From positions 80,328-144,327 of the forward strand of contig JAGARK010000016.1 in assembly GCA_017622295.1 (NCBI GenBank): a stretch of 64,000 nucleotides of DNA. Reading direction: 5' to 3'. Both the position numbers and the translations under genes were made by a program. Below, piece by piece: positions 50,722 to 64,000 of the stretch. This stretch comes from Oscillospiraceae bacterium. Lineage in GTDB: Bacteria; Bacillota; Clostridia; Oscillospirales; Oscillospiraceae. Every line of letters starts with the position of its first letter. Within the stretch, counting starts at the first letter, position 1. Under the pieces are notes generated by a model. The model made no database searches. It worked only from the letters and a program-made list of their open reading frames with translations, and was not told the DNA's origin.

Positions 50722-50763
50722 AAAAATATCCCCTTGCGCGGTGTTGTCTACGCGCAAGGGGAT
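50722..50763 (-). terminator. Intrinsic terminator ending the lipoprotein operon
   Basis: Minus strand: a 13-bp stem (50728-50740 with 50751-50763, ATCCCCTTGCGCG), ten-base loop, then TTTTT (50722-50726). It lies directly after the 1402-residue lipoprotein gene. Confidence 0.83.
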
Positions 50764-50770
50764 AAATACG

Positions 50771-53700
50771 TTATTCGCTTACAGGTTCCGTGCTCTGAGG
50801 CTCGGTTTCCTGTACCGCTTCAGGCTCCGTGGCAATGGGCTCCTGCTCCGCAGGAAGCTCCTCCACAGCTTCAGCCTGCTCAGTGGTTTCTTCCTCTGCA
50901 GGCTCCGCAACGATCTCTTCCTCACCAGGATTGACCTCTTCGGTCACTTCCTCGGAAATGATCTCCTGAACGGGCTCCTCGGGGATCTGCACTGTCTGAA
51001 CAGGCTCCTCTTCCCTGGCGATGAACTCACCGCAGATGATGAACTCTGCCTCCAGACAGCTGATGACAGCATCCTCGTCGTAGGAATCCACCGGCTCGGT
51101 AGCAGTGACCAGAATCAGGACCTCATCGCCCTTGCGGACTTCCATGGACACATTCTCATTCTCAGTCCATGCTTCTTCCTGCTCGTCATACTCCCAGAGA
51201 GTAACTTCCTCCTCCGTACGCTGATTGATCAGCGTTATATTGGCACGGATGTCTTTAAGCTCGTTTTCCTCGTCCAGAACAAAGGTCAGGGTGCCTTCCT
51301 CGGTGGCCTTCCAGGTGTAGTAGTAACCCACACTTTCAGCCTCCAGGGAAACTTCGACCTTTTCAAGATCCTTGTCCTTCAGCTCCAAAGGATTCTCTTC
51401 GGTACCCTCAGGCTCTTCCTCCCGGGCCGCAGCCTGCTGGACAGGTGCGGGTTCAGAAGATACAAAGGATACGGTCACAGCGCTTTCAACCGCGGGATAG
51501 CTGGCACTGTGTGCCACCACATTCAGGTAGACCACATCGCCGGCGCTGACGCTCATGGTGATGGGAGATACCGGCTTGTTGGAATCCCAGACAGAGACGG
51601 TTTCGTAGTTGCCCTGATGGATCAGGGTTGCATTGAGCACCTTGGTATCCTCCACTGCGACGGACAGTTCACCATCACTGGGAGCAGTCCAGGTGTAGTA
51701 ATAACCTTCATCCTGGCCGGCGGGCAGCTGAACCAGAACATTGCCCGGCTTCAGTGCTTCGGGGTTTTCCAGATGGCCCAGCAGATACTCGAAGTCCAGG
51801 GAATAGGTCTTTGCCACATCACTGGTGGAAACCAGCATGATCTCCAGCGGGTTGTTCATATCCGTTTCGGGAGTGAACAGAGAAATCACGCCATTTGCAT
51901 CTGCGCTGTAGCTGACGCCCTTGATGGTCAGAGTCAGATCCGCTGCATCATGGATGGTCAGCATCTGCTCGCCGATTCTGGTGTAAGCATAGACCGTATG
52001 GCCGGAAATCAAAGGAATGCGTACATGGTTGGAAGACATGTACAGCATCAGCTCCTCACTGCCGCTGACGCTGCAGGAAAGGGTGATTTCACTTTCTTCC
52101 GCTGCATCACCTGCACGGATGCCGATCAGTAGCTCATCCCCCGCGGAAACCAGATTGGAAACCACAGGATATCCAAAGCCGTTGACCCAGCCGTCTGCGC
52201 TCTGGGTGAATTCGACGCCGCTGGTGATGTTGCGAATGGAGACATCATAGCCCTCCACCGCTTCATTCATCATCACTGCGGACAGCACGCCCTCAGAATC
52301 AGAGGTCCAGCTGTAATAATAGCTGTCAGTACCCGCAGGAATGGTGCAGATCAGATAACTGACACTGTCAACAGCCTCGGGGTTCTGCTCCGTGCCCACA
52401 GGTGCGTCAATGGAAATAACATAGTCCGCATCAGACTCGGAATTGTTGGTAATTCCAAAGATACCGGACTCGGTAATCGTCACAGACAGTTCTCCAGTCT
52501 CGGAGGTAAATACTTCCCCATCCTGCACCACAGTCAGATCCGCGCCGGAAATGGTTGCCACCAGACCAACCGCATCGGCAGAACAATACCAGGTCTTGCC
52601 GGAAGGCACAGTGATGGTGTTCTCACCGTTTTCCAGAATGACGGGATTACTTGTGGAGCCGTAGGCAGCCTCGAAAGAGGCTTCAATCACCAGATCGACT
52701 GCAGGATAGCTGGAATTTCTGGAAGTAATATTGAGGATGACCTCCTGCCCGGCGCTGATCTCCATGGTCATGGGATTGGTAACGGTGTTCATATCCCACA
52801 GATTCACGGTATCGTAATTGCTCTGATTGCTCAGAGTCATATTGGCAAGCTTGAGATAGCTCTCACCAACCTGGATCGTCAGAATACCATCATCCTCAGC
52901 AGTCCAGGTGTAGCAGTAGCCGTCATCGTTGCCCTCAGGCACATTGACGGAGGTCTGGCCCAGCTTGAGCTGCTCGGGGTTGTACATATGACCCAGAGGA
53001 TACTCGAAGGTCATGGTGTAGGTCTTTGCGGCCTGGCTGGTGCTGACCAGCTTGATCTCGACGGGATGGCGGGGATCGGATTCGGGCGTAACCAGCTTGA
53101 TGACGCCGCTGCCGTCGGGACCATACTCCTCACCATTGATAATCAGCTTCAGATCTGCAGCGTCATGAACCGTCAGAATCTGCTCGCCTTCTCTGGTGTG
53201 GGCATACACCTCAATCCAGGAAGCAGCGGGGATCTTCACGGTGCCGTTTGTGATGCTGAACATCACATCACTGGTACCGCTGACAGATGTGACCGACGTG
53301 ATCTGTGCCACGGTGGCGCGTTCGCCGCCGCTCACTGTCACAATAATCTGAACCTCGTCACCGATCTCAACCAGATTGGAAACCGTGGGATACACGCCGC
53401 CGCTGAGCCATCCATCGGTGCTCAGGGACATGGCGGAAGCCTTGGTCAGATTGTTGACGGTGACATCATAAGTAACGTCGGCGCTGCTGTCAGTCAGGTT
53501 GAGCACCTCCATGACATTGACGGAAAGGACACCGGTCTGATCCGCCGTCCAGCTGTAATAGTAACCCTCATAATCGGAGGATACGCTGGCAGTGGCGCTT
53601 CCAAGAGTCTCCAGAATCTCAGGATCCGCTTCGCCGCCCTGGGGATACACAAAGCTAACAGTGTAAGACAGCTCCGCATCACTGTTGTTACCGAAGACCA

Positions 53701-54979
53701 GCTCAACAGGCGCCTCAGCATCCTGCGCTGCGGGGATCCGCAGGTTCACGATGCCCTGTGCGTCCGCGCCATAAGTCACATTGTCGTACATGACATAGGC
53801 GTTTTCGTTTTCGATGGTCAGGGTCATGCCGCCGACATTGTACACATTGTAGTGCACATAGCTTTCGGCAGGAATCAGCGCGGTCTCGAAGCTTTCGCGG
53901 CCCTCCATATCCTCTTCATAGGGATTGGTCACAGAGCCGGGAGCGCCGGAAACGGTGCCCGCAAGCACGACTTCTGCCTCTGTTTCGGCAGGTGTGACGG
54001 CCACATGGATAATGGCCTCATCGCCGGTAAGCAGATCCACACTGATGGTTCCGTCGGCGCTGTCAGCCAGAGAAACCGTCTGTTCACCAACGGTGATGGA
54101 AACATCGTACTGCACCTCTTCAGGGGTCACGCTTTCCACCCGGAAAGCAAGATTGCAGTTGAATTCTGCCGTCCAGCTGTAGTAATAGCCGTCCGGATAA
54201 TCCGCATTCAGCTTGACGGTCATGGAGGCAATATCCTCCAGAACCTCGGGATTCTGCATCGTGCCCATGGGCGCTGCAAACTTCATGGTATAAATCTCTT
54301 CAGCATCGGACTTGTTGCCCAGCTGAACAGACACAGGCGTCACTTCATCCACTGCGGTCAGCTTCACCATCACGAGGCCGTTTTCATCGGCTTCATAGGT
54401 ATTGCCGTCGTAAACGACATAAGCGTCCGCATCTTCGATGTTCAGGACCATACCATTTGCCTGGTAGAAATTATAGAAGATTTCGCCCTCAACGGGAATC
54501 ATAACGGAACCAACGGACACCTCAGTTTCTTCACCAACACTCAGGAACTCGGTATATGCGTTGTTCACCGTACCGGGAGCATCCACCTCCAGAACCTCAG
54601 GCTCTGTGGGCTTGGTTTCCTCCTCATCGCCGGTACCGACATCAGGTACCTCGGAACCGGTAAAGCCGCCGGTACCGCCGGGAGTGGAATTGCCGCCGGC
54701 AGAAGAGTCCTCCTCTTCCTCCTCGGGCTCCGTCTCCTCAGTGGGTTCGGTGCTCTCTTCAGTGGGTTCCGTGCTTTCCTCGGTGGGTTCCTCCGTTGCC
54801 ACGGGCGCATCTGTTGCAGGGGCATTCTCCGTAACAGGAGTCGTTGCCTGCAACTCAGTATTTGTGGGCTGTTTGCCGTTGTCACCGGATTTTCCGATAC
54901 AGCCAGCCAGCAGCGCCACGCAAAGAACCATACAAGCCAATCCGATCAGCAATCCGATTCGCTTTAAGTTATTCTTCAT
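50771..54979 (-). CDS. Large lipoprotein with six GYYYxWTA beta-sandwich-like modules
   Basis: 1402 residues. Lipoprotein signal with lipobox LLAGC (Cys27), then a Thr/Glu/Pro-rich low-complexity stalk (about 40-135). The body has alternating modules: one type reads FYNFYxxNGMVLNIEDADAYVVYDGNTY, and the other reads GYYYSWTA or variants. Six copies of the latter occur (GYYYSWTAE, GYYYSWTAD, GYCYTWTAE, SYYYSWTSD, GYYYTWTAP, GYYYTWKAT). The C-terminus is another Glu-rich stretch. Modules are of the pre-peptidase/jelly-roll or CBM-like kind, but I cannot assign a ligand. A related pair of modules occurs in the 1054-residue lipoprotein. It is the last gene of the operon. AAGGAGAGAG precedes the start. 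Confidence 0.78.
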   Translation of the reverse strand: MKNNLKRIGLLIGLACMVLCVALLAGCIGKSGDNGKQPTNTELQATTPVTENAPATDAPVATEEPTEESTEPTEESTEPTEETEPEEEEEDSSAGGNSTPGGTGGFTGSEVPDVGTGDEEETKPTEPEVLEVDAPGTVNNAYTEFLSVGEETEVSVGSVMIPVEGEIFYNFYQANGMVLNIEDADAYVVYDGNTYEADENGLVMVKLTAVDEVTPVSVQLGNKSDAEEIYTMKFAAPMGTMQNPEVLEDIASMTVKLNADYPDGYYYSWTAEFNCNLAFRVESVTPEEVQYDVSITVGEQTVSLADSADGTISVDLLTGDEAIIHVAVTPAETEAEVVLAGTVSGAPGSVTNPYEEDMEGRESFETALIPAESYVHYNVYNVGGMTLTIENENAYVMYDNVTYGADAQGIVNLRIPAAQDAEAPVELVFGNNSDAELSYTVSFVYPQGGEADPEILETLGSATASVSSDYEGYYYSWTADQTGVLSVNVMEVLNLTDSSADVTYDVTVNNLTKASAMSLSTDGWLSGGVYPTVSNLVEIGDEVQIIVTVSGGERATVAQITSVTSVSGTSDVMFSITNGTVKIPAASWIEVYAHTREGEQILTVHDAADLKLIINGEEYGPDGSGVIKLVTPESDPRHPVEIKLVSTSQAAKTYTMTFEYPLGHMYNPEQLKLGQTSVNVPEGNDDGYCYTWTAEDDGILTIQVGESYLKLANMTLSNQSNYDTVNLWDMNTVTNPMTMEISAGQEVILNITSRNSSYPAVDLVIEASFEAAYGSTSNPVILENGENTITVPSGKTWYCSADAVGLVATISGADLTVVQDGEVFTSETGELSVTITESGIFGITNNSESDADYVISIDAPVGTEQNPEAVDSVSYLICTIPAGTDSYYYSWTSDSEGVLSAVMMNEAVEGYDVSIRNITSGVEFTQSADGWVNGFGYPVVSNLVSAGDELLIGIRAGDAAEESEITLSCSVSGSEELMLYMSSNHVRIPLISGHTVYAYTRIGEQMLTIHDAADLTLTIKGVSYSADANGVISLFTPETDMNNPLEIMLVSTSDVAKTYSLDFEYLLGHLENPEALKPGNVLVQLPAGQDEGYYYTWTAPSDGELSVAVEDTKVLNATLIHQGNYETVSVWDSNKPVSPITMSVSAGDVVYLNVVAHSASYPAVESAVTVSFVSSEPAPVQQAAAREEEPEGTEENPLELKDKDLEKVEVSLEAESVGYYYTWKATEEGTLTFVLDEENELKDIRANITLINQRTEEEVTLWEYDEQEEAWTENENVSMEVRKGDEVLILVTATEPVDSYDEDAVISCLEAEFIICGEFIAREEEPVQTVQIPEEPVQEIISEEVTEEVNPGEEEIVAEPAEEETTEQAEAVEELPAEQEPIATEPEAVQETEPQSTEPVSE

Positions 54980-55040
54980 GGCTCTCTCTCCTTCATTGTT
55001 TTTGTAACAATGGCCGTAGGCCCTTCCGAGGCCGCCGAGA

Positions 55041-55466
55041 TTACTCAGCAGCCTTCAGAGTAATGGTCAGTTCGGTGGAACCGTCTTCGAAATAGAATTC
55101 CCGCTCCTCAGTGCTGTAGGTGAAACCTGCGGGCATAGCCAGGAAGCTCACCTTATAATCGGCCTCCTGAACGTTAAACTCCGCAACACCGGATTCATTG
55201 GTCATGCCGGGGAAACAGGTATCCAGGCAAATCTGAACCATGGCGCCGGCAATGCCGTTGCCCTCTTCGTCAACGACAGTGACAGAGTAGTTGGTCAGGC
55301 CGGAGTCAGCAGCTTCAGTCTCGGGTACAGCCTCGGTGGGAGCTTCGGTTGCGGGAGCTTCAGTGGGAGCTTCGGTAGCTTCCGCGTTATTGCCGCCGCA
55401 GGCGCACAGGCTCAGAGCCATGCACAGAACCAGAAGCAGTGCAGCAATATTTTTGATGGTCTTCAT
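55041..55466 (-). CDS. Small lipoprotein with one Ig-like (CNA-B/carboxypeptidase-regulatory) domain
   Basis: 141 residues. Signal peptide with lipobox LCAC (Cys23), an Ala/Pro/Thr/Glu linker (TEAPTEAPATEAPTEA), then one beta domain (about 58-139, YSVTVVDEEGNGIAGAMVQICLD). The beta domain resembles the N-terminal domains of the two thioredoxin-like lipoproteins in the same operon, so this may be a stand-alone version. AAGGAGGAAAAA lies upstream of the start. A GC-rich hairpin without U tract lies between it and the preceding gene. Confidence 0.8.
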   Translation of the reverse strand: MKTIKNIAALLLVLCMALSLCACGGNNAEATEAPTEAPATEAPTEAVPETEAADSGLTNYSVTVVDEEGNGIAGAMVQICLDTCFPGMTNESGVAEFNVQEADYKVSFLAMPAGFTYSTEEREFYFEDGSTELTITLKAAE

Positions 55467-55547
55467 AATGGTTTTTCCTCCTTCATTTCCGGCAGATTTG
55501 ATTCATCCGCGGAATGAAACGCAATTTTCAGATTTCTCTGCGATCCC

Positions 55548-55573
55548 GGCTCCCCCGCATAGGCGGGGAAGCC
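55548..55573 (-). other. Intercistronic hairpin inside the lipoprotein operon
   Basis: An 11-bp stem with one mismatch (55548-55558 with 55563-55573, GGCTCCCCCGC) and a four-base loop. It has no U tract, so it may protect or process the upstream message rather than end it. Confidence 0.4.
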
Positions 55574-55584
55574 TTTAAATCGCA

Positions 55585-58500
55585 TTACTTAAAATAGCAG
55601 CATGCAAACATCCAGGCAACATTTGCATTCAGACCGGCCAGCTCGACAAACAGATAGTTTGCATTCTCTGCATCCCACCATCCGGCGTAATCGCCGCCCT
55701 GCTGGATCATGTACATCAGATCCTCATTCAGCGGATACAGACCGTAGGTCTCGTCCATAGACTGACAATATGCAGTCATCAGAGGTGCATAATCTTCCTT
55801 TCGGATTGCGACGCCCTCTTCGTAGAACACCTGCTTGAAGCCGGTGCCGTACTGGCTGGTAACGCCGAACATATTGGAGAACTGAATGTACGGAGCGGTC
55901 TGGCCCAGGTTCACATAGACCAGAGGACCGGTTGCGGAATTCAGATGGTAGTAACCATCGGAACCCAGGACCAGCGTGTGGCTTCCTGCCGTCAGATCAA
56001 AGTAGGTAAGGGTCTTTCCGGATGCACCGGTGACCTTATACACTTCTGTGGGCGAGCCTGCACCCTCGTAGACTTCTGCGGGTAGGTCACTTTCATCCAA
56101 AACAGCATCGCCGATTCGGGTGACGATCAGCACAGCATCGGAGCTCTTGGTGAGACCAATAACATAGCTAATACCCAGCATGCTTTCCTTCACGTTGATC
56201 GTAAAGGCATTATTCTCCAGATCGATGTCGTTCAGGTTCGGGAATGTGGAAGCACCCCAATAACTAACCTCTGCACTGGAATTCGCAGCGGTAATCTGGT
56301 AAGTACCGGACACCTCGGGAGTGAACAGATAGTAGTTGTAAACATTGGACTGCATGCCGGAGATATAGGTAGCGCCATCATACACATGATATGCAATACC
56401 CACGGAGCTGCCGCCGACGTGGAGCTCCTCACCCTCTGTGCCGCACTTTTCATAGGCGGTAATAGTGATGGAGGTCTTGTCTGCTGAAAGGACTGCGTCT
56501 GCGGTATTATACCAGTAAGAACCGGAGAATGCCAGAGATACGGTATAATTGCCCTCAGCCAGCTGATGGGTCACGGTACCATCAGCGCCGACCTGCTTCA
56601 TGGCTACAAAGCTGCCGTCCTCCTTCAGGAAGGTGACAGACACATTCTGGATGGGCTTGCCGCTGTAGTCCACTACCTTGACGGTGTAGTCAATGCCGCT
56701 GGCGCTGTTGCTGCCGGCAGTCATGGAAGCGGTCAGCGTCGTGGCGCCGTCCTCGAAGGTAAAGCTGCCATCCACATAGCCGTCGGCGATGACATAAACG
56801 GTATAGGTATCCTTATCCAGCGTCAGCTTGATCTGGCCGGTGGCATCGGTGTAGCCCTGGCTGCCGCCCATTGCCACCAGCGCACCGGAGATGGGAGCAC
56901 CGGAAGCATCAACCACCGTAACGGTGTAGTCGGTCAGCACCACTTCCTTTTTGTCCAGCTTGATGGAAATATTGGGAATGGCTTCCGTCAGGGTGAAATT
57001 GCTGGTATTTCCGGTGTAACCGGAGGGGAACTTCAATGTTACCGCATAGGTTCCGGGTACCAGTTTGGTGGCTGCCACACCGGACTCGTTGGTTGTCAGA
57101 GGAACAGAGGTGCCATCTACATCCAGGTACACCGTTGCGCCGGAAATGGGGGCTCTGCTTTCGTCGGTAATCGAGACGGAATAGATGATCTTCTCTGCCT
57201 GCTCATCATCCTCACTGCCATCATCTTCGCCGACGTAGGCATTGAAACTGAAATTACCCGAGGGATAGGAACCGCTGCTGTCCGGCAGCGTGGACACAAT
57301 CAGCTGAACACTGTTGCCTGCACTGATCTTGACAGACAGAATGGGATTACCTGCCTCAGACTTTCCCGCATCCTCGCTCAGAATCCGGTAAGCACCGGTG
57401 CTCAGATTATACAGCGTATAGCCGTAGGGAACGCCTGCGGTAACGCCGGTCAGCTCAACAGTCAGAACGCCGGCTTCCTTTGCACGGTACAGATAGTAAA
57501 CACCCTGGCTGTTGCCTGCGGGAACCTTCACATTGAACTCACCCAGTTCCATGGTATAAGGATTGCCGATGGTGCCCGTGGGCATTGCAAGGTTTACCTT
57601 AAAGATTTTCGTTTCCTCGCCGTTATTGCCGAAGCCTAGCACAACAGCTGAGGAGGTATCGGCAGAAGTAACGGCCAGGCTGACCGTACCGTTGGACGGT
57701 GAATAGGTCTTGTTATTATAAACAATGTATGCGTCCTTGTCCTTGATGGAAACATACCGGGTACCGGTAATCTTGTAGACATTCACATACACGACCTCGC
57801 CGGGTTCGACCTGAACCTCAAAGCTTGTTACACCGCCAACGTCAGTAGGGTTTTCGAAATCATCTTCATCATCTTCGCTCTCGATTTCTTCCAGATCCTT
57901 CACCACAGTCTGCTCATAGTCTTCCGCGGTAAAGAATGCGAAGATATCCTCAAAGGTCTCGCTGTCAGTGACGCTGCCCATGTGCATAAAGCTGATCACA
58001 CCATAGCGGTCAATGACCACAGTGGTGGGATAGCCGGTCAGCTGCATGGCAGACTCCCAGGAGCTGCTGCACTGTGCCATGGGGAAAGTCAGACCCAATT
58101 CCTTCTGGAATGCTGCGATGGCTTCATCGTCCGCATTCACAGGGTTCAGCGCCAAAATCTCGATCTTGTCGCTGTACTTTTCATAAGCCTCCTGCAGCGA
58201 AGGGAATTCCGCCTTGCAGGGAGAGCATTCAACGTACCAGAAATTCAGAACAACAGCTTCCTTCTGCTCCAGCAGCTCGGAAAGCTTGTATTCTGTTCCG
58301 TCACATGCAGTGACGGTAAAGTCAAACATGGCATCTCCCAGCTTGACCTGAATGCCTGCCAGGGCATCCTCATCGACCAGCTCCATGGGCAGACGAATCT
58401 GCGTATCGGCACCGGTGATGCTGTAATATTCCTCAACCACATAGCCCGTAGGCACATCCTTCAGCACAGCCACATAGCTGCCGCTGGAAGTATCGGAAAA

Positions 58501-58749
58501 AGAGATCTGACCGGCATCGTCCGTCTTTGCAAACCATACCAGATCTGCCAGGGACTTATCGGTGTAAATGTACACACCGATCCCCGCCAGCGGCATTCCC
58601 TTCTCCGTGGAGACGGTGACGGTATAGTTACCATCGGGGCTGGTCTGTGCGGTGGGTTCCGGTTCCTGCTTTCGGCAGGCAAACATTGAGATGCTCATGC
58701 AAAACACAAGGCAAAAGGCTAAGATTCTTCTCAGTCTTTTCATTGTCAT
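55585..58749 (-). CDS. Large lipoprotein with TlpA/ResA-like thioredoxin domain (CSPC) and Ig-like repeats
   Basis: 1054 residues. Signal with lipobox MFAC (Cys25). N-terminal Ig-like domain (about 40-120), then a thioredoxin-like domain (about 135-290) with active site CSPC (Cys175/Cys178) and a cis-Pro segment LTGYPTTVVID (Pro241). Next come modules like those of the 1402-residue protein, four CNA-B/Ig-like repeats (YSVSITDESRAPISGATVYLDVDG, YTVTVVDASGAPISGALVAM, YTVKVVDYSGKPIQNVSVTF), and a C-terminal region of about 270 residues shared with the 422-residue lipoprotein (GYYHLNSATGPLVYVNLG, LYPLNEDL, WMFACCYFK). It probably acts on extracytoplasmic thiols; the partner is unknown. The start at 58749 is the best of three in-frame ATGs but uncertain by a few residues. 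Confidence 0.82.
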   Translation of the reverse strand: MTMKRLRRILAFCLVFCMSISMFACRKQEPEPTAQTSPDGNYTVTVSTEKGMPLAGIGVYIYTDKSLADLVWFAKTDDAGQISFSDTSSGSYVAVLKDVPTGYVVEEYYSITGADTQIRLPMELVDEDALAGIQVKLGDAMFDFTVTACDGTEYKLSELLEQKEAVVLNFWYVECSPCKAEFPSLQEAYEKYSDKIEILALNPVNADDEAIAAFQKELGLTFPMAQCSSSWESAMQLTGYPTTVVIDRYGVISFMHMGSVTDSETFEDIFAFFTAEDYEQTVVKDLEEIESEDDEDDFENPTDVGGVTSFEVQVEPGEVVYVNVYKITGTRYVSIKDKDAYIVYNNKTYSPSNGTVSLAVTSADTSSAVVLGFGNNGEETKIFKVNLAMPTGTIGNPYTMELGEFNVKVPAGNSQGVYYLYRAKEAGVLTVELTGVTAGVPYGYTLYNLSTGAYRILSEDAGKSEAGNPILSVKISAGNSVQLIVSTLPDSSGSYPSGNFSFNAYVGEDDGSEDDEQAEKIIYSVSITDESRAPISGATVYLDVDGTSVPLTTNESGVAATKLVPGTYAVTLKFPSGYTGNTSNFTLTEAIPNISIKLDKKEVVLTDYTVTVVDASGAPISGALVAMGGSQGYTDATGQIKLTLDKDTYTVYVIADGYVDGSFTFEDGATTLTASMTAGSNSASGIDYTVKVVDYSGKPIQNVSVTFLKEDGSFVAMKQVGADGTVTHQLAEGNYTVSLAFSGSYWYNTADAVLSADKTSITITAYEKCGTEGEELHVGGSSVGIAYHVYDGATYISGMQSNVYNYYLFTPEVSGTYQITAANSSAEVSYWGASTFPNLNDIDLENNAFTINVKESMLGISYVIGLTKSSDAVLIVTRIGDAVLDESDLPAEVYEGAGSPTEVYKVTGASGKTLTYFDLTAGSHTLVLGSDGYYHLNSATGPLVYVNLGQTAPYIQFSNMFGVTSQYGTGFKQVFYEEGVAIRKEDYAPLMTAYCQSMDETYGLYPLNEDLMYMIQQGGDYAGWWDAENANYLFVELAGLNANVAWMFACCYFK

Positions 58750-58789
58750 AACATTACACGCTCCCAACATAATAGTTGATTATGTATGA

Positions 58790-60058
58790 TTATCCTGCAA
58801 TATAGCAGCACATGAACAGCCAGGCGATCTCGGAATTAATGCCGGGGACCATATTGCCGTTCTCGTCCACAAACAGATAGGAAGAGCTGCTGGAATCGAA
58901 CCACTCGGAGTGGTCGCCGCGCTGCTGAATGATGTACTTCAGATCCTCGGTCAGAGGATAGACGCCATTGGACTCATCCATGCAGGCGATGTACTCCAGC
59001 AGGCACTCGGTGTAGCTTTCCTTCTTGACGAACTCGCCGTTCTCATCGTAGAAGTACTTGCTGACGCCTGAGTTATCCAGAATGGTCTTGAAGGAATCCA
59101 GATAATTGCCGTCCTTGCCCAGATTGACCAGGACCAGAGGACCATCAGCAGAATCCAGATGGTAGAAGCCATCCTTCTCGTTCAGGACCAGATTGTACTT
59201 GCCGGTTTCGGCAGTCAGATCAAACTCCTTCAGGGAAGCGCCGGCGGGCAGCGTATAGGGAGCCAGCTCAGCGGTGGTCTCATAGATCATCCAGGGCTCA
59301 TCGGCCAGAGTGCGCTCTGCTTCGCCGATGCGCTCAATGGCCAGGGTGCAGCCGTCTGCATCCGCGGCCTCAATGCCGATGACCAGGGTGGTGGTACCAC
59401 TGTCGCCGGTGCCGATCATGCTGGCGCTGATGGAAACGGTAAAGGCATTGTCGGTCACCTCAGCCAGATTGTTTTCCTGAACGAAGTGGGGCGCGCCGTA
59501 GTAGCCGATCTGACCGGCATCTTCAATCACGGAAAACTCATAGGTACCGGCGATGCTGGGGGTGAACAGGAAATAGTTCATCTTGCCAGCCTCCAGATCA
59601 ACTCTGGTACAGCCGGTGGAGACCCGGTAAGCGTTGTAGCTCTCATCCCGGACCACCAGGGTGGAAGCCTCAGCTGCAGGAGTGTAAGAAAGAACAACTT
59701 CCAGCTCGGTCTTGCTTGCGGACAGATTCAGATCAGCAGCATCATAATAGTAGCTGCCTTCGGTATCGGTGAACATCAGTTCAACCTGATAATCACCCTT
59801 GGCCATGACCTTCGCGGCCACGCCGTTGGCATCAACCACCTGCATGGCGGCCTGCTGGCCGTTGCTCATGAAGCGGACGATGACACCTTCGGTGTAGGGG
59901 TTGCCGAGTGCATCGGCAACCTTCACCTGATAATTTGCTTCGCCGGAGCCTACGCTGACGCCGCTTTCAGGCTTTTCGCCGCCGCAGGCACTCAGCATTA
60001 AAGCAACGCACAGAAGCATTGCCAAAACCAGCACGCTGGTTCTTCTCTTGTTAGTCAT
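58790..60058 (-). CDS. Lipoprotein with shared C-terminal GYYH/CCYY module
   Basis: 422 residues. Signal with lipobox LSAC (Cys25), an Ig-like domain (about 42-125), a middle beta region (FLFTPSIAGTYEF), and a C-terminal part paralogous to the 1054-residue lipoprotein: GFYHLDSADGPLVLVNLG, YPLTEDLKYIIQQRGDHSEW and final AWLFMCCYIAG. It has no thioredoxin domain. I do not recognise the C-terminal module as a named family. It lies 34 bases after the first lipoprotein gene and 40 before the next, so it belongs to the same operon. Confidence 0.8.
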   Translation of the reverse strand: MTNKRRTSVLVLAMLLCVALMLSACGGEKPESGVSVGSGEANYQVKVADALGNPYTEGVIVRFMSNGQQAAMQVVDANGVAAKVMAKGDYQVELMFTDTEGSYYYDAADLNLSASKTELEVVLSYTPAAEASTLVVRDESYNAYRVSTGCTRVDLEAGKMNYFLFTPSIAGTYEFSVIEDAGQIGYYGAPHFVQENNLAEVTDNAFTVSISASMIGTGDSGTTTLVIGIEAADADGCTLAIERIGEAERTLADEPWMIYETTAELAPYTLPAGASLKEFDLTAETGKYNLVLNEKDGFYHLDSADGPLVLVNLGKDGNYLDSFKTILDNSGVSKYFYDENGEFVKKESYTECLLEYIACMDESNGVYPLTEDLKYIIQQRGDHSEWFDSSSSSYLFVDENGNMVPGINSEIAWLFMCCYIAG

Positions 60059-60092
60059 TGAAAAATCTCCTTGGGAAATCGGTGCTTAAAGA

Positions 60093-62939
60093 TCATGCAC
60101 CCAGATAGTCATAATAGTAGCACATCTTGATCCAGGAATCGTCCACGTTTTCAAAAGTGTACTTGTCCATGATCTTCTGGAGCAGCTCAGCCAGGTCCTC
60201 GTCAACGGGAACACAGCCGATCTTCTCGGCGCTGCCAGTGGTGATGACCTTATCCAGGTAAGCTCTGACCTGCTCGGTCAGGTCCTCGCCGGTACCGTGG
60301 TACTTGCCGGCGTAGACATCCTCCAGCTGATAGATCTCAGCATAGGCTTCATATTCGTCGCCCCACAGCTCACGCAGATACTCATCGGTGGCATCCGCAT
60401 CACCGTCGAACTTGTCCAGGAAGGAAATGATGTACAGGTCGTCCTCGGTCTTGCTGAAATCGAAGCCGCCCAGGTCAATCATACCGGTGATCATAACGGT
60501 CTCACCGTTCTCATCCTTCTTGACGGTGCCGTCTTCATTATAAGAGGGCACATTGGAAACGGGAGTACCAAAGACGCCCGTGGCACCGGTGAAATCAGCA
60601 TAGATGATGCTTCCGTACTTCTGGTTACCGTTGGCATCCTTGCCCAGATCCTCGTGGTAGTAGCCATCCTCGCCCAGGACAACATCGATACCGCCGGAGA
60701 TCAGATAATACATGGCTTCGCCGGTTGCGTCGGTGTCATAGGTGAAGTATCCGGGAGAGCAGGCGCGGAACAGCTGATAAGAGGTACCCACGAACTCGAT
60801 ATCATAATAGATGTAGCCGACTTCGTAGACATCCCAGAATGCGATATCAATGTAGTACTTCTCCCCTGCTTCCATATAATACAGCATGGAAACATTGTCA
60901 GTATCTTCGTACATTCTCTCGCAGTGCTCATAGACCATCAGCTCTTCGCGGTTCTCGTTGAAGATCCAGCCTTCAACGCCGTCCTGGGATTCGTTGCGGG
61001 AGGTGATGCGATAGACGCCGGAGCGATCAGGAATGAACTCAGCAATCAGACCTCTGGGAATGATGGGACGGTTGTAGTAGAAGTAGTTGGACTCCACATT
61101 CTTGCCCAGCTTTGCTTTGTAAGCAGACTGTGCACTCAGGCCCTTGATGGGGTCCTCCAGCTGACCGCCCTTGGAGCCGTAGACCTGGTAGTAGGAACAC
61201 AGCTTCAGCCACTCATTCTCATCATCATCGAAGCCTGCGATATCTGCGACAGTCTTCAGCAGCTCTGCCAGCTCGTAATCAACGGTGCAAATACCATTCA
61301 GAGAAGAGTTGGAAGCATAGTTGCAATACTGAACCAGATCATCATAGTAGTTATGACCGTCAGCGACCAGATCGCCGTCGTAGGCCAGATCCCAAACAGT
61401 CTTCTCCTCATTGAACTCGGTGTAGTTCATCAGGTCAGCCAGCAGCAGGGGGCCGTTCTCCTCACCGACGTGATAGTAGCCGTCCTTTTCATTGTAGACG
61501 ACGTCCACATACTCATACTCGAAGCCGTCATCCACAGCGGTGGCTGCAAAACGGGGAATATAAGACTCGGTTTCGATATCATCAGCATCGACAATACGCA
61601 TATTCTTAATGTAAACGGTATCGTCACCAACATTGCCGCTCTCATCCTTCAGGTAGCACAGGGCCACTTCATAGGTGCCGTCTTCCAGGGCGACCCAGGG
61701 ATAGCAGCTCTTCCACTCCTCAGAATCGGAAACGCCGGAAATCTGATAGATATCCTCATTGTCAACGATGACAAACAGCACATCGGAGGCACCCTCGGTG
61801 GAGGACAGATAATCAAAACCAACAGCCTGGCCTGCCTTCAGAGTCACATCGGCATAAAGAATTGCATAAGACTCTTCGATCTCCTGGTTGGAGGCCTTCA
61901 GGCAAGCTTCACCGTTTTTCTCAGCTTCAATGAAGGGCCAGCAGTATTCTGCGCTCTCGCCTTCTTCTGCGCGGTAAGTAATTTCGTACTCAGAGCTGTT
62001 CAGGATCGCAGCAACATTCTCGGAAGAATCCATCTCGTAAGTAGGCTTGACATTGGTGATCAGCTCACTGACGCTGCCGTACAGCTTCTGCTCGTAATCG
62101 TCACCGGTAAAGGTTTCGAAGATGCTGGTGAAGGGTCTCAGGCTGGTAATGCCGCCGACCTCGATCAGACAAATGACGCCGTAACGGTCAATGATGATAG
62201 AGGTGGGATAACCGCTGATCCCAAAGGTAGCAGACCAGGAAGCGGGGCACTCAGCCATGGGGAAAGTCAGACCCATGCTCTGCTGATAAGCGCCGACTGC
62301 AGCATTGCCTTCCTGCAGCGGATCCAAAGCAATGACGCCTGCCTTATCCTTGAACATCTGGTAGGCTTCTTCCATATAGGGGAACTCGTTTGCACAGGGA
62401 CCGCAGGTGGTGAAGAAGAAGTTCAGCAGAACAACTTCCTTCTCTTCCAGCATTGCAGAAAGAGTGACGGTCTCGCCGGCAGGGGTGATGACACTGAAGT
62501 CATACATAACATCACCCAAACCCAGAGTTGCACCGGCAAGGTTTTCACCCCGGACCACGGAAGATTTCAGCTTCAGATTAGCAGAATTGCCGCTGAAGCC
62601 GTAGCTTTCTGCCACTTCATATCCCTTGGGAGCGCCGGATACAACAATGGCATAGGAATCGCTCTCGGGCATCTGGAAGCTGACATTACCGTCTGCATCG
62701 GTTTCACCATACTGTACCAGATTAGCCAGGGTGCTATCCTCATAAACATAAACATCAATTCCGGCCATAGCCATGCCGCCCATAGTGGTGACATTGACAC
62801 TGTAGCCGCGGTTGGCTGCATCGCCGGTGGTTGTCTCTTCGGGGGTTTCCTCAGAACCACAGCCAGTCAATGCAGCAGCCATCGAAAGGATCATCGCCAC
62901 GGCGAGAATCAACGACAGCAGTTTCTTAATATTGCTCAT
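60093..62939 (-). CDS. Large lipoprotein with TlpA/ResA-like thioredoxin domain (CGPC)
   Basis: 948 residues. Signal with lipobox ALTGC (Cys27). Ig-like domain (about 46-128), thioredoxin-like domain (about 135-290) with active site CGPC (Cys179/Cys182) and cis-Pro ISGYPTSIIID (Pro245). A beta-rich region follows (ATLKAGQAVGFDYLSS), then two divergent copies of the C-terminal module found in the two next genes (GYYHVGEENGPLLLADL with WLKLCSYY, and GYYHEDLG with WIKMCYYYDYLGA). CGPC is the classical thioredoxin dipeptide, suggesting a reductase-like potential. The start at 62939 follows AGGAGG by seven bases. It is the first gene of the operon and has a good promoter upstream. Confidence 0.83.
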   Translation of the reverse strand: MSNIKKLLSLILAVAMILSMAAALTGCGSEETPEETTTGDAANRGYSVNVTTMGGMAMAGIDVYVYEDSTLANLVQYGETDADGNVSFQMPESDSYAIVVSGAPKGYEVAESYGFSGNSANLKLKSSVVRGENLAGATLGLGDVMYDFSVITPAGETVTLSAMLEEKEVVLLNFFFTTCGPCANEFPYMEEAYQMFKDKAGVIALDPLQEGNAAVGAYQQSMGLTFPMAECPASWSATFGISGYPTSIIIDRYGVICLIEVGGITSLRPFTSIFETFTGDDYEQKLYGSVSELITNVKPTYEMDSSENVAAILNSSEYEITYRAEEGESAEYCWPFIEAEKNGEACLKASNQEIEESYAILYADVTLKAGQAVGFDYLSSTEGASDVLFVIVDNEDIYQISGVSDSEEWKSCYPWVALEDGTYEVALCYLKDESGNVGDDTVYIKNMRIVDADDIETESYIPRFAATAVDDGFEYEYVDVVYNEKDGYYHVGEENGPLLLADLMNYTEFNEEKTVWDLAYDGDLVADGHNYYDDLVQYCNYASNSSLNGICTVDYELAELLKTVADIAGFDDDENEWLKLCSYYQVYGSKGGQLEDPIKGLSAQSAYKAKLGKNVESNYFYYNRPIIPRGLIAEFIPDRSGVYRITSRNESQDGVEGWIFNENREELMVYEHCERMYEDTDNVSMLYYMEAGEKYYIDIAFWDVYEVGYIYYDIEFVGTSYQLFRACSPGYFTYDTDATGEAMYYLISGGIDVVLGEDGYYHEDLGKDANGNQKYGSIIYADFTGATGVFGTPVSNVPSYNEDGTVKKDENGETVMITGMIDLGGFDFSKTEDDLYIISFLDKFDGDADATDEYLRELWGDEYEAYAEIYQLEDVYAGKYHGTGEDLTEQVRAYLDKVITTGSAEKIGCVPVDEDLAELLQKIMDKYTFENVDDSWIKMCYYYDYLGA

Positions 62940-63011: not shown

Positions 63012-63040
63012 ATAGTAACACAGGAAGTCCGAATCGTCAA
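63012..63040 (-). promoter_or_regulatory. Promoter of the five-gene lipoprotein operon
   Basis: Minus strand TTGACG (63035-63040) and TACTAT (63012-63017), 17-base spacer, about 70 bases before the first lipoprotein start. The -10 is imperfect. Confidence 0.6.
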
Positions 63041-63087: not shown

Positions 63088-63121
63088 AAAAAACACCCCG
63101 GAATCCGAAGATTCCGGGGTG
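63088..63121 (-). terminator. Intrinsic terminator after the CxxC-repeat surface protein
   Basis: Minus strand: a perfect 12-bp stem (CACCCCGGAATC at 63094-63105 with 63110-63121), loop CGAA, followed by TTTTTT (63088-63093). Confidence 0.87.
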
Positions 63122-63172
63122 CGGATATTATTGCGTCATCCGGTTTATCGTCAACGCAGCTTCAGTTAAAAC

Positions 63173-64000
63173 TTAAGCAACGCGCTTCTTGGAAACCAGG
63201 ACGAAAGCGACAGCGGACAGAGCCATAACAGCAACCCAAACCATGATCATGGCGGTGTCGCCAGTCTGAGTCTCGGATGCGCCGCAGACGGTGCAGATGC
63301 CGTCGTCGCCGAACTCATGGCCCAGAGCAGCGATGATAACGCGCTTGAAGTTGGTCAGCTGAGTCAGTTCCTCGTTCTGCCAGACCTGCTCACAAGACTC
63401 ACAGTACCAGTACTCAATGTTACCGTTAGCGGAGCAAGTGGGATCCTTAGCCTCGACGTGGATGATTTCGCAGCCAACCTCGGGAATGATGACGTTCTTC
63501 ATGTTGGTCAGCTGGGTCAGAGCCTCGTCCTGCCAGACAGTCAGGCAGTCAGCGCAGTACCAGTACTCGATGTTGCCCTCGTAGTGGCAACCGGCCTCAA
63601 CAGCCTCAACATGGATGAGGTCGTGGCTTGCCTCGGCCTTGATAACGTTCTTGGAGTTGGTGATCTGAGTCAGAGCCTCGTCTGCCCAGTAGATCTCACA
63701 GACGGAGCAGAACCAGTACTCGGTGTTGTAGCAGGACTCAGCAACATGCTCCAGCTCGTGGGTAGCCTCAGCCTTGATGACGTTCTTGGAGTTGGTGATC
63801 TGAGTCAGAGCCTCGTCTGCCCAGTAGATCTCACAAACGGAGCAGAACCAGTACTCGGTGTTGTAGCAGGACTCTGCAACGTGCTCCAGCTCGTGGGTAG
63901 CCTCAGCCTTGATGACGTTCTTGGAGTTGGTGATCTGAGTCAGAGCCTCGTCTGCCCAGTAGATCTCACAAACGGAGCAGAACCAGTACTCGGTGTTGTA
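63173..64000 (-). CDS. Cell-surface protein with CxxC repeats and sortase-like C-terminal anchor (5' end outside window)
   Basis: The last 275 residues; the N-terminus lies beyond 64000. The frame is open from the window edge to the stop. It consists of 45-residue repeats of the form EYWFCSVCEIYWADEALTQIT, each with a CxxC pair, then two more divergent copies and a final CTVCGA unit. Similar repeats occur in clostridial surface proteins. The C-terminus is a membrane anchor (MIMVWVAVMALSAVAFVLV) preceded by QTGD and followed by KKRVA: a sortase-type layout, but without the usual Pro (LPxTG). A start at 63502 suggested by the longest ATG frame is internal and not the real start. Confidence 0.82.
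   Translation of the reverse strand, partial: YNTEYWFCSVCEIYWADEALTQITNSKNVIKAEATHELEHVAESCYNTEYWFCSVCEIYWADEALTQITNSKNVIKAEATHELEHVAESCYNTEYWFCSVCEIYWADEALTQITNSKNVIKAEASHDLIHVEAVEAGCHYEGNIEYWYCADCLTVWQDEALTQLTNMKNVIIPEVGCEIIHVEAKDPTCSANGNIEYWYCESCEQVWQNEELTQLTNFKRVIIAALGHEFGDDGICTVCGASETQTGDTAMIMVWVAVMALSAVAFVLVSKKRVA
63646..64000 (-). repeat. 135-bp tandem repeats in the surface protein gene
   Basis: Units begin at about 63646, 63781 and 63916 (the last cut by the window edge). By eye the first two differ at about three positions over 135 bases. More divergent copies lie at 63493 and 63340. Each unit encodes 45 residues with one CxxC. Confidence 0.85.

Follow-up and report, generated by a model that had tools for sequence, protein, structure and literature searches.

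A five-gene operon of thioredoxin-domain and other exported proteins in an Oscillospiraceae bacterium, and its association with protease, peptide import and membrane redox genes in relatives

Introduction

Protein-utilisation systems that combine a cell-envelope subtilase with an oligopeptide (Opp) importer exist, as in the lactocepin-like systems. Disulfide reduction in the cell envelope is served by the DsbD/CcdA-ResA/TlpA pathway, in which domains of the TlpA/ResA fold carry a CXXC motif on the outer side of the membrane. In the Gram-positive Streptococcus pneumoniae the Etrx1/Etrx2-CcdA-MsrAB2 system joins thioredoxin-fold surface lipoproteins to a membrane electron donor (PMC3914529). Membrane iron-sulphur (Fe-S) proteins of the NapH-like type, with a Fer4_5 domain, are thought to feed an extracytosolic domain, an FMN (flavin mononucleotide)-binding one (PMC8238504), and the genome report of the feather-degrading anaerobe Fervidobacterium islandicum suggests disulfide-acting enzymes beside proteases (PMC4587914). 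Here we describe an operon of five genes, g1 to g5, from an Oscillospiraceae bacterium (GenBank GCA_017622295.1, contig JAGARK010000016.1); the window, i.e., the whole stretch of DNA that was analysed, is 64,000 nucleotides long. Two of the five exported proteins have a thioredoxin domain, and in relatives the operon is repeatedly found together with genes for a large protease, a peptide importer and a pair of membrane redox proteins.

Distribution and Gene Context in Relatives

The five consecutive genes lie on the minus strand with gaps of 34, 40, 118, and 61 bases between the open reading frames (ORFs); strand, coordinates, lengths, and gaps are all as given in the initial annotation, which had been made from the letters of the window without database searches. 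Long matches to g1 were found in 30 places in 24 of 136 genomes of the genus, the window's own genome included and with two places in genome G000; only 40 of the 136 combine a completeness of 90% or more with a contamination of 5% or less. In all 24 genomes at least one g1 place has a second thioredoxin-type match close downstream on the same strand, and many of 40 stretches of 4–20 kb show the order g1-g2-g3-g4, often with a large g5-like gene after it. A shorter form of the operon, consisting of g1, a small thioredoxin lipoprotein, and g4, is also found in relatives. A scan of one GTDB genome per species gave 171 relatives; the analysis continued with the 80 best loci, some of them on the same contigs as the genus loci. 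The gene order recurs in relatives, the check proposed in the initial annotation. The relatives are labelled Oscillospiraceae, Clostridia, in some cases Lachnospiraceae, and in one case Agathobacter, and all sources, where named, are ruminant gut sites. Across the order the distribution of g1 is patchy, as a match at E 1e-60 was obtained in only 13 of 394 sampled genomes, the own genome among them, belonging to three families. A second g1 gene, 63% identical, is located on another contig of the window's own genome (L005:8705-11521) with no g2–g5 beside it.

Three sets of neighbours were found at the operon in relatives. One is a membrane Fe-S protein (Fer4_5/Fer4) fused to a C-terminal redoxin/TlpA domain and preceded by a membrane protein that ends in a CD1871A-type CXXC domain. 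Another is a large subtilase of the S8 family that also has PA and fn3_5 domains, as seen in six of six tested genes flanking the Fe-S/CXXC genes, and the last consists of an uncharacterised lipoprotein-like gene (p425), a solute-binding protein (SBP), and Opp permeases and ATPases. In translated searches at least one such partner gene was present at 46 of the 80 loci and at 42 of the 60 loci of at least 15 kb. Leaving out the four loci that had supplied queries gave 42 of 76 and 39 of 57, respectively. For some query families the second representative came from the 80 loci, and the first p425, SBP, and Opp queries came from a contig among them; the counts are unchanged when only first representatives are used. 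As controls, 11 of 12 window proteins were found at none of the 80 loci and one at two, and neither the antiporter gene nor the MurC gene close to the operon was found at any of the 80. These neighbours are the genes tested for, carbohydrate genes not being among those searched.

The partners do not keep a single position relative to the operon. The Fe-S/CXXC genes are convergent downstream at 22 loci, the subtilase gene is divergent from g1 at 12 and downstream on the same strand at 6, and p425/SBP/Opp are upstream on the same strand at 10, four loci being counted twice. Such re-association in differing arrangements argues for a functional connection over mere shared ancestry, and membership of the operon in a module with the protease, the importer, and the redox pair is well supported.

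The same association is seen among the 136 genus genomes irrespective of distance. The full Fe-S/TlpA fusion, taken as a match above 400 bits, is present in 33 of them, namely 22 of the 24 with a long g1 and 11 of the 112 without (Fisher 3e-15), and the S8 subtilase in 23 of 24 against 35 of 112 (Fisher 2e-9). In the 27 genomes that have both fusion and subtilase, the start of the subtilase gene is no more than 5 kb from the fusion gene in 17 and no more than 20 kb from it in 20. The membrane domain of the DsbD/CcdA family (DsbD_TM) is distributed in the opposite way: it was found in 47 genomes, comprising 1 of the 33 with the fusion (a weak match, in G057) and 46 of the 103 others (Fisher 2e-6), or 0 of 33 and 45 of 103 when that match and a below-cut-off match in G092 are left out. 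Within the genus the fusion and DsbD/CcdA therefore nearly exclude each other.

In the window's own genome the partners are on another contig, C37, and since this lies outside the window they were invisible to the initial annotation. On C37 the S8 subtilase gene shares one strand with those for two Opp ATPases, OppC, OppB, the SBP, and p425, all divergent from the CXXC and Fe-S/TlpA genes; no other S8 gene was found in this genome. A search for DsbD_TM (PF02683), whose control was positive in 10 of 14 genomes, gave no match in this genome (75.6% complete). The Fe-S/TlpA gene of the close relative G073 is directly followed by the lipoprotein operon. In G057 the contig with the Fe-S/TlpA gene stops about 450 bases past this gene and the contig with the operon starts close to the end of a g5-like gene, and the two contigs may be joined; the G057 genes upstream of g1 have about 80% DNA identity to the genes that follow the Fe-S/TlpA gene in the own genome. 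Synteny of L006:5131-13866 with L030 and L031 also suggests that in close relatives the operon is between the Fe-S/TlpA gene and a gene of 370 amino acids (aa), where the own genome does not have it. From these comparisons the operon appears to have moved in the own genome, or to have been placed elsewhere in this assembly.

Thioredoxin Domains and the Membrane Redox Pair

The initial annotation had recognised TlpA/ResA-like thioredoxin domains with CGPC and CSPC motifs in two of the genes, and Pfam matches for g1 and g3 and PDB matches for g1 bear this out. Redoxin and AhpC-TSA match g1 at E 2e-10 and 4e-10 and g3 at E 6e-14 and 1e-15 (AhpC-TSA 1.4e-15). In the PDB, g1 matches ResA chains at 9e-13 with its sequence and at 4e-24 with a profile of 62 g1 sequences, and the best 60 of the 211 matches of this profile all fall within the thioredoxin domain. 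Both active-site cysteines of g1, C179 and C182, are invariant in the 62 sequences. The residues between them vary (CGPC 28, CSWC 22, CTWC 8, and others) in a tally that covers the thioredoxin domains of proteins labelled g1 by script, some of which are g3-type. The ResA model PRK03147 (NCBIfam) scores 65.6 bits with g1 and 78.8 bits with g3, and because the curated cut-off of 170 bits is not reached the domains are classed here as ResA-like, not as ResA. A plain ResA or cytochrome-maturation role was rejected, the ResA, DsbE, and StoA models all scoring far below cut-off and the own genome yielding no DsbD_TM protein. In relatives some thioredoxin-domain proteins have N-terminal stretches rich in CxxC pairs (L058:9544-10668, L059:4406-5407, L061:531-1817, L064:5460-6557, and L069:6563-7954), which by eye recall the repeats encoded directly upstream of the window's operon.

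The Fe-S/TlpA fusion contains Fer4_5, Fer4, and Redoxin domains according to Pfam, with Fer4_5 (PF12801) at 57.1 bits (cut-off 22), and scores 68.4 bits with the NapH/MauN subfamily model, below its cut-off of 213. Twenty cysteine columns are present in all 11 aligned members. Its last hydrophobic helix has six lysine or arginine residues before it and none after it, so by the positive-inside rule the fused TlpA domain would be outside the membrane. The CXXC partner is a membrane protein of 256 aa, residues 221–256 of which match CD1871A (NF040920) at 40.2 bits (cut-off 32); with three lysine or arginine residues before the helix and one after it, the same rule predicts less clearly that its terminal CXXC is outside. 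No FMN-binding domain was found in the fusion or the CXXC partner, these two membrane proteins having been scanned and other adjacent genes only partly.

The fusion query also finds matches far beyond the genus. In a sample of the phylum it matched 37 of 398 genomes at E 1e-60, and the 36 other than the own genome match with the Fe-S half only, up to residue 297 at most. At the seven best-scoring outside loci (L151–L157) a small ORF with a terminal CXXC resembling that of CD1871A, recognised by motif as an open frame of 48–108 aa ending in ICLECIG[IL]G, adjoins the NapH-like Fe-S gene in seven of seven, and in five of seven a TlpA-type gene is near within the short stretch compared. The fusion thus resembles a version of a more widespread clostridial redox gene set in which separate genes have merged. 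Searches of the open-access literature turned up no functional description of a set made up of a CD1871A-type CXXC protein, a NapH-like Fe-S protein, and TlpA, nor of the recurrent pair of CXXC ORF and Fe-S gene.

Other Domains of the Operon Proteins

At its N-terminus g1 has a weak Ig/Cna-B-like domain, below the Pfam cut-off. Beyond the thioredoxin domain there are more domains, with one of the g2/g3 C-terminal type at about aa 480–590 and a similar element with a cysteine pair at the C-terminus; the pairs 551/581 and 909/940 are kept in 27–30 of 30 sequences, and C581 and C940 are invariant in 62. g2 consists of a weak Ig-like N-terminus and the C-terminal domain, which has no assigned family and is common to g1, g2, and g3. 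In the own genome a profile of this C-terminal half of g2 matches only g1, g2, g3, and the g1 paralogue. It has no convincing match in Pfam or the PDB, the best PDB profile match being at E 0.046. A Pfam search with 43 g2 members gave Ig-type matches in up to 19 (Big_3_5, Big_1; best E 9e-6) and left the C-terminal domain without a family, while PLipase_C_C (aa 265–299 of g2 itself, E 0.006) was discarded as a sub-cut-off match in one of the 43 members.

In g3 the order is an N-terminal Ig-like domain, the TlpA domain, a region shared with g5, Cna-B/transthyretin-like domains, and the C-terminal domain shared with g2. CarboxypepD_reg (1.7e-19, in three stretches), SpaA (3.7e-11), Big_1, and MG4 pass the Pfam cut-offs in g3. 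g4 has one Cna-B/Ig-like domain (SpaA 1.2e-3, below cut-off) and, besides the lipobox cysteine, a pair of cysteines that are both present in 24 of 24 members, 3–5 residues apart. As the spacing varies, a loop disulfide or a pair of thiols is a better fit than an active site of the thioredoxin type. In BLAST comparisons a single region of g3 is similar to several stretches of g5, which suggests that g5 is probably built of repeats; no Pfam family matched g5 under E 0.1. Of the Ig-like, CNA-B-like, or jelly-roll-like modules that the initial annotation had the other proteins share with the two thioredoxin proteins, Cna-B/Ig-type domains are above the Pfam cut-off in g3 alone and stay below it in g4 and g1.

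Layout and Transcription Signals of the Operon

The five genes are likely to be transcribed as one unit, judged from the signals in the DNA (Table 1). The operon is bounded upstream by the terminator of the previous gene, which is followed by a promoter-like site before g1, and downstream by a strong hairpin with a U run after g5. The latter is outside the reach of the terminator pattern scanner, its loop exceeding 8 bases, and was scored by folding; the same scanner found no terminator-like site on the minus strand inside the g1–g5 gaps. A promoter before the first gene, here by consensus match, and a first U-tract terminator after the last are what the initial annotation had proposed. Of the separate promoters or terminators between the genes, named there as evidence to the contrary, terminator-like sites were not seen in the gaps by the scanner, and promoters may exist inside the operon, since 18 promoter-like sites were found in the region against 11.0 expected from shuffled sequences, a mild excess. 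The g3–g4 gap holds a strong stem, which is perhaps an mRNA-stabilising or processing element.

Alternative starts would lengthen g1 to 961 aa and g3 to 1061 aa. Each of the five proteins has a single hydrophobic helix at its N-terminus, and by eye a lipobox-like cysteine follows it in every case (C27, C25, C25, C23, and C27 in g1 to g5). The prediction that all five are lipoproteins holds by automatic lipobox pattern for g1, g2, and g5. Lipidation of g3 (MFAC) and g4 (LCAC) is less certain because they do not pass that pattern.

The gene upstream of the operon (63173–64000 of the window, minus strand) extends past the end of the contig and encodes repeats of about 45–51 aa with CxxC pairs, five DNA copies being spaced 135–153 bases apart. 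In L032 (11519–13429) a homologue that matches the LPXTG anchor model is located between g4 and the Fe-S/TlpA gene.

Table 1. Positions of the operon genes, selected protein domains, and predicted transcription signals in the window.
Feature	Position	Strand	Description
g1	60093..62939	-	948 aa; lipoprotein
g2	58790..60058	-	422 aa; lipoprotein
g3	55585..58749	-	1054 aa; exported protein
g4	55041..55466	-	141 aa; exported protein
g5	50771..54979	-	1402 aa; lipoprotein
g1 TlpA/ResA thioredoxin domain, C179-G-P-C182	62142..62534	-	about aa 136–266; Redoxin 41 bits, cut-off 26.6
g3 TlpA/ResA thioredoxin domain, C175-S-P-C178	57958..58350	-	about aa 134–264
C-terminal domain common to g1, g2, g3	58790..59266	-	about aa 265–422 of g2; DGxYH and GP motifs, cysteine pair; BLAST between g1, g2, g3
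g4 conserved cysteine pair, C80-x3-C84	55215..55229	-	alignment of 24 family members
Terminator of the gene upstream of the operon	63093..63122	-	13-pair stem and U run; -25.6 kcal/mol, z -6.3
Promoter-like site before g1	63012..63040	-	TTGACG-17-TACTAT, TG before second hexamer, 9/12 matches; consensus match only
g3–g4 gap	55467..55584	-	strong stem without U run; -48.1 kcal/mol, z -4.2
Intrinsic terminator after g5	50722..50764	-	14-pair hairpin, then U run; -27.5 kcal/mol, z -7.3

Discussion

The domain content, the gene order, the linkage in relatives, the presence of all parts in one genome, and the near-exclusion of DsbD/CcdA are established by the comparisons above. What the parts do together is a matter of interpretation, and with confidence evenly divided for and against we propose that g1–g5 are the surface arm of an extracellular protein-utilisation module that is fed by a CcdA-independent electron route. 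The Fe-S/TlpA fusion and its CXXC partner would move electrons from the cytoplasm, or from a membrane pool or quinol, outward with no need of DsbD/CcdA. The electrons would pass through the Fe-S clusters to the CXXC and TlpA domains of the membrane unit, from there to g1 and g3, and finally to disulfides outside the cell. In their reduced state the thioredoxin domains of g1 and g3 would cleave disulfide bonds of proteins outside the cell. The proteins thus opened would be cut by the giant exported S8 subtilase, and the p425 lipoprotein with the SBP/Opp importer would bring in the peptides. A scaffolding or substrate-binding role is probable for g2, g5, and the C-terminal domains of g1–g3, while the conserved cysteines of g4 make it a candidate for a thiol relay or a redox switch. 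We infer the direction of the electrons, which protein reduces which, and extracellular proteins as the substrate; that the disulfides are those of proteins to be digested is suggested by the linked protease and peptide importer.

It is tempting to speculate further, in a tentative form that we hold with somewhat less than even confidence, that this is a locus for reductive proteolysis, doing for protein breakdown what a polysaccharide utilisation locus does for polysaccharides. The Fe-S/CXXC/TlpA unit would then be the conduit and the surface thioredoxins would open disulfide-locked food or host proteins for the subtilase and the importer, with the C-terminal domain shared by g1–g3 serving as a new substrate- or protease-docking domain. 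If the proposal is correct, it provides a concrete route by which uncultured gut Clostridia attack disulfide-rich proteins anaerobically, and it gives the recurrent CD1871A-type CXXC/NapH-like Fe-S/TlpA set a function, i.e., thiol reduction outside the membrane that does not involve CcdA.

Several observations weigh against the proposed protein-utilisation module. The co-occurrence statistics ignore phylogeny and genome incompleteness. No partner gene was found at 34 of the 80 loci, including 18 of the 60 of at least 15 kb, and g1 is seen standing alone, e.g., at L005, L065, L066, and L068. The operon of the own genome is on a different contig from the protease and Fe-S genes, and in the genus g1 lies within 25 kb on one contig of the fusion in only 10 of the 22 genomes with both and of the subtilase in 12 of the 23 with both. 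Among the 33 fusion genomes 6 have no subtilase that was found and 11 no long g1. Conversely no fusion was found in G022, which has g1–g4 and no subtilase that was found, or in G044, which has g1–g3 and a subtilase fragment only. Finally, many components of the module have conserved cysteines of their own, and for that reason could be clients of the thioredoxins.

The last point leads to the main rival, a client-maintenance role, in which the thioredoxin lipoproteins keep the S8 subtilase, the C-terminal domains of g1, g2, and g3, and g4 reduced or correctly paired, so that any effect on proteolysis is indirect. The 14 long S8 proteins of the loci have 18–27 cysteines each with nine columns present in all 14, and the cysteine pairs of g1 and g4 described above are conserved. 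Two large multidomain thioredoxin proteins per operon would however be much for housekeeping, and g1 also occurs away from S8; on balance we regard maintenance as rather unlikely. The occurrence of g1, and of the fusion, in genomes without S8 would also suit an extracellular electron sink, where excess reducing equivalents are placed on outside disulfides (of proteins, cystine, or mucin) as a fermentative acceptor and proteolysis is secondary. NapH-like proteins have been proposed for respiratory electron transfer in published systems (PMC8238504), but a sink does not predict the repeated linkage with S8 and Opp and is considered improbable.

Oxidative-stress repair, with surface thioredoxins that feed a reductase repairing oxidised surface proteins, is what thioredoxin-fold surface lipoproteins do in the CcdA-Etrx-MsrAB2 system of S. 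pneumoniae (PMC3914529). Here no Msr family was seen among the proteins scanned with Pfam (sets of 5, 8, 6, and 5), a genome-wide MsrA/MsrB search not having been part of this, and the own genome gave no DsbD_TM protein; repair appears a shade less probable again than a sink. The initial annotation had envisaged thiol chemistry combined with adhesion or glycan binding. Pilins and adhesins can contain domains of the SpaA and Big_1 types, and SpaA, CarboxypepD_reg, and Big_1 pass in g3, with a weak match of like kind in g4 and a g3 region shared by g5. However, no carbohydrate-binding family is above cut-off in g1–g5, and the neighbours found among those tested, which did not include carbohydrate genes, are a subtilase, an oligopeptide importer, and the Fe-S/TlpA/CXXC carrier. 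Adhesion or glycan binding as the main function was rejected, as the domains that pass (SpaA, CarboxypepD_reg, Big_1, and MG4) are generic beta folds in g3 alone and show no binding; this combination is considered very improbable, and the adhesive half of the earlier idea is not supported.

Comparison with Described Systems

The initial annotation knew of no named system of this composition, and none turned up in our searches. In its proposed working the module resembles both surface thioredoxin pathways and NapH-like carriers. It would be a member of neither as defined, because no DsbD/CcdA was found and because TlpA is the domain that serves as carrier, an FMN-binding domain not having been seen in either membrane protein. 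With the pneumococcal Etrx1/Etrx2 system it shares surface lipoproteins of the thioredoxin fold (by lipobox pattern for g1 and by eye for g3) that are paired with a membrane donor of electrons; the candidate donor is here the NapH-like Fe-S/TlpA protein with the CXXC partner, CcdA not being found in the own genome by the DsbD_TM search. Compared with the proteins of that system (PMC3914529), those described here are much larger and multidomain, and the linked genes are for a protease and peptide import. The likeness to NapH-like extracytosolic electron transfer is in the membrane Fer4_5 protein; the carrier here is a fused TlpA thioredoxin domain, whereas an FMN-binding domain takes this place in those systems (PMC8238504).

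The DsbD/CcdA-ResA/TlpA pathway has the same kind of domain on the outer side of the membrane, and differs in that the own genome yielded no match to DsbD_TM, which in the genus is nearly exclusive with the fusion. The CXXC, NapH-like Fe-S, and TlpA set of other genomes in the phylum has the same redox elements as separate small genes. Here, by contrast, one protein combines the Fe-S part with TlpA, the CXXC is part of a larger membrane protein, and the genes are linked to a protease and peptide locus. As in the lactocepin-like systems a subtilase with S8, PA, and fn3_5 domains is accompanied by an oligopeptide importer, and on C37, outside the window, the protease gene is next to those for the SBP, OppB, OppC, and two ATPases. 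What distinguishes this locus from the lactocepin-like systems are the dedicated surface thioredoxins and the candidate electron supply.

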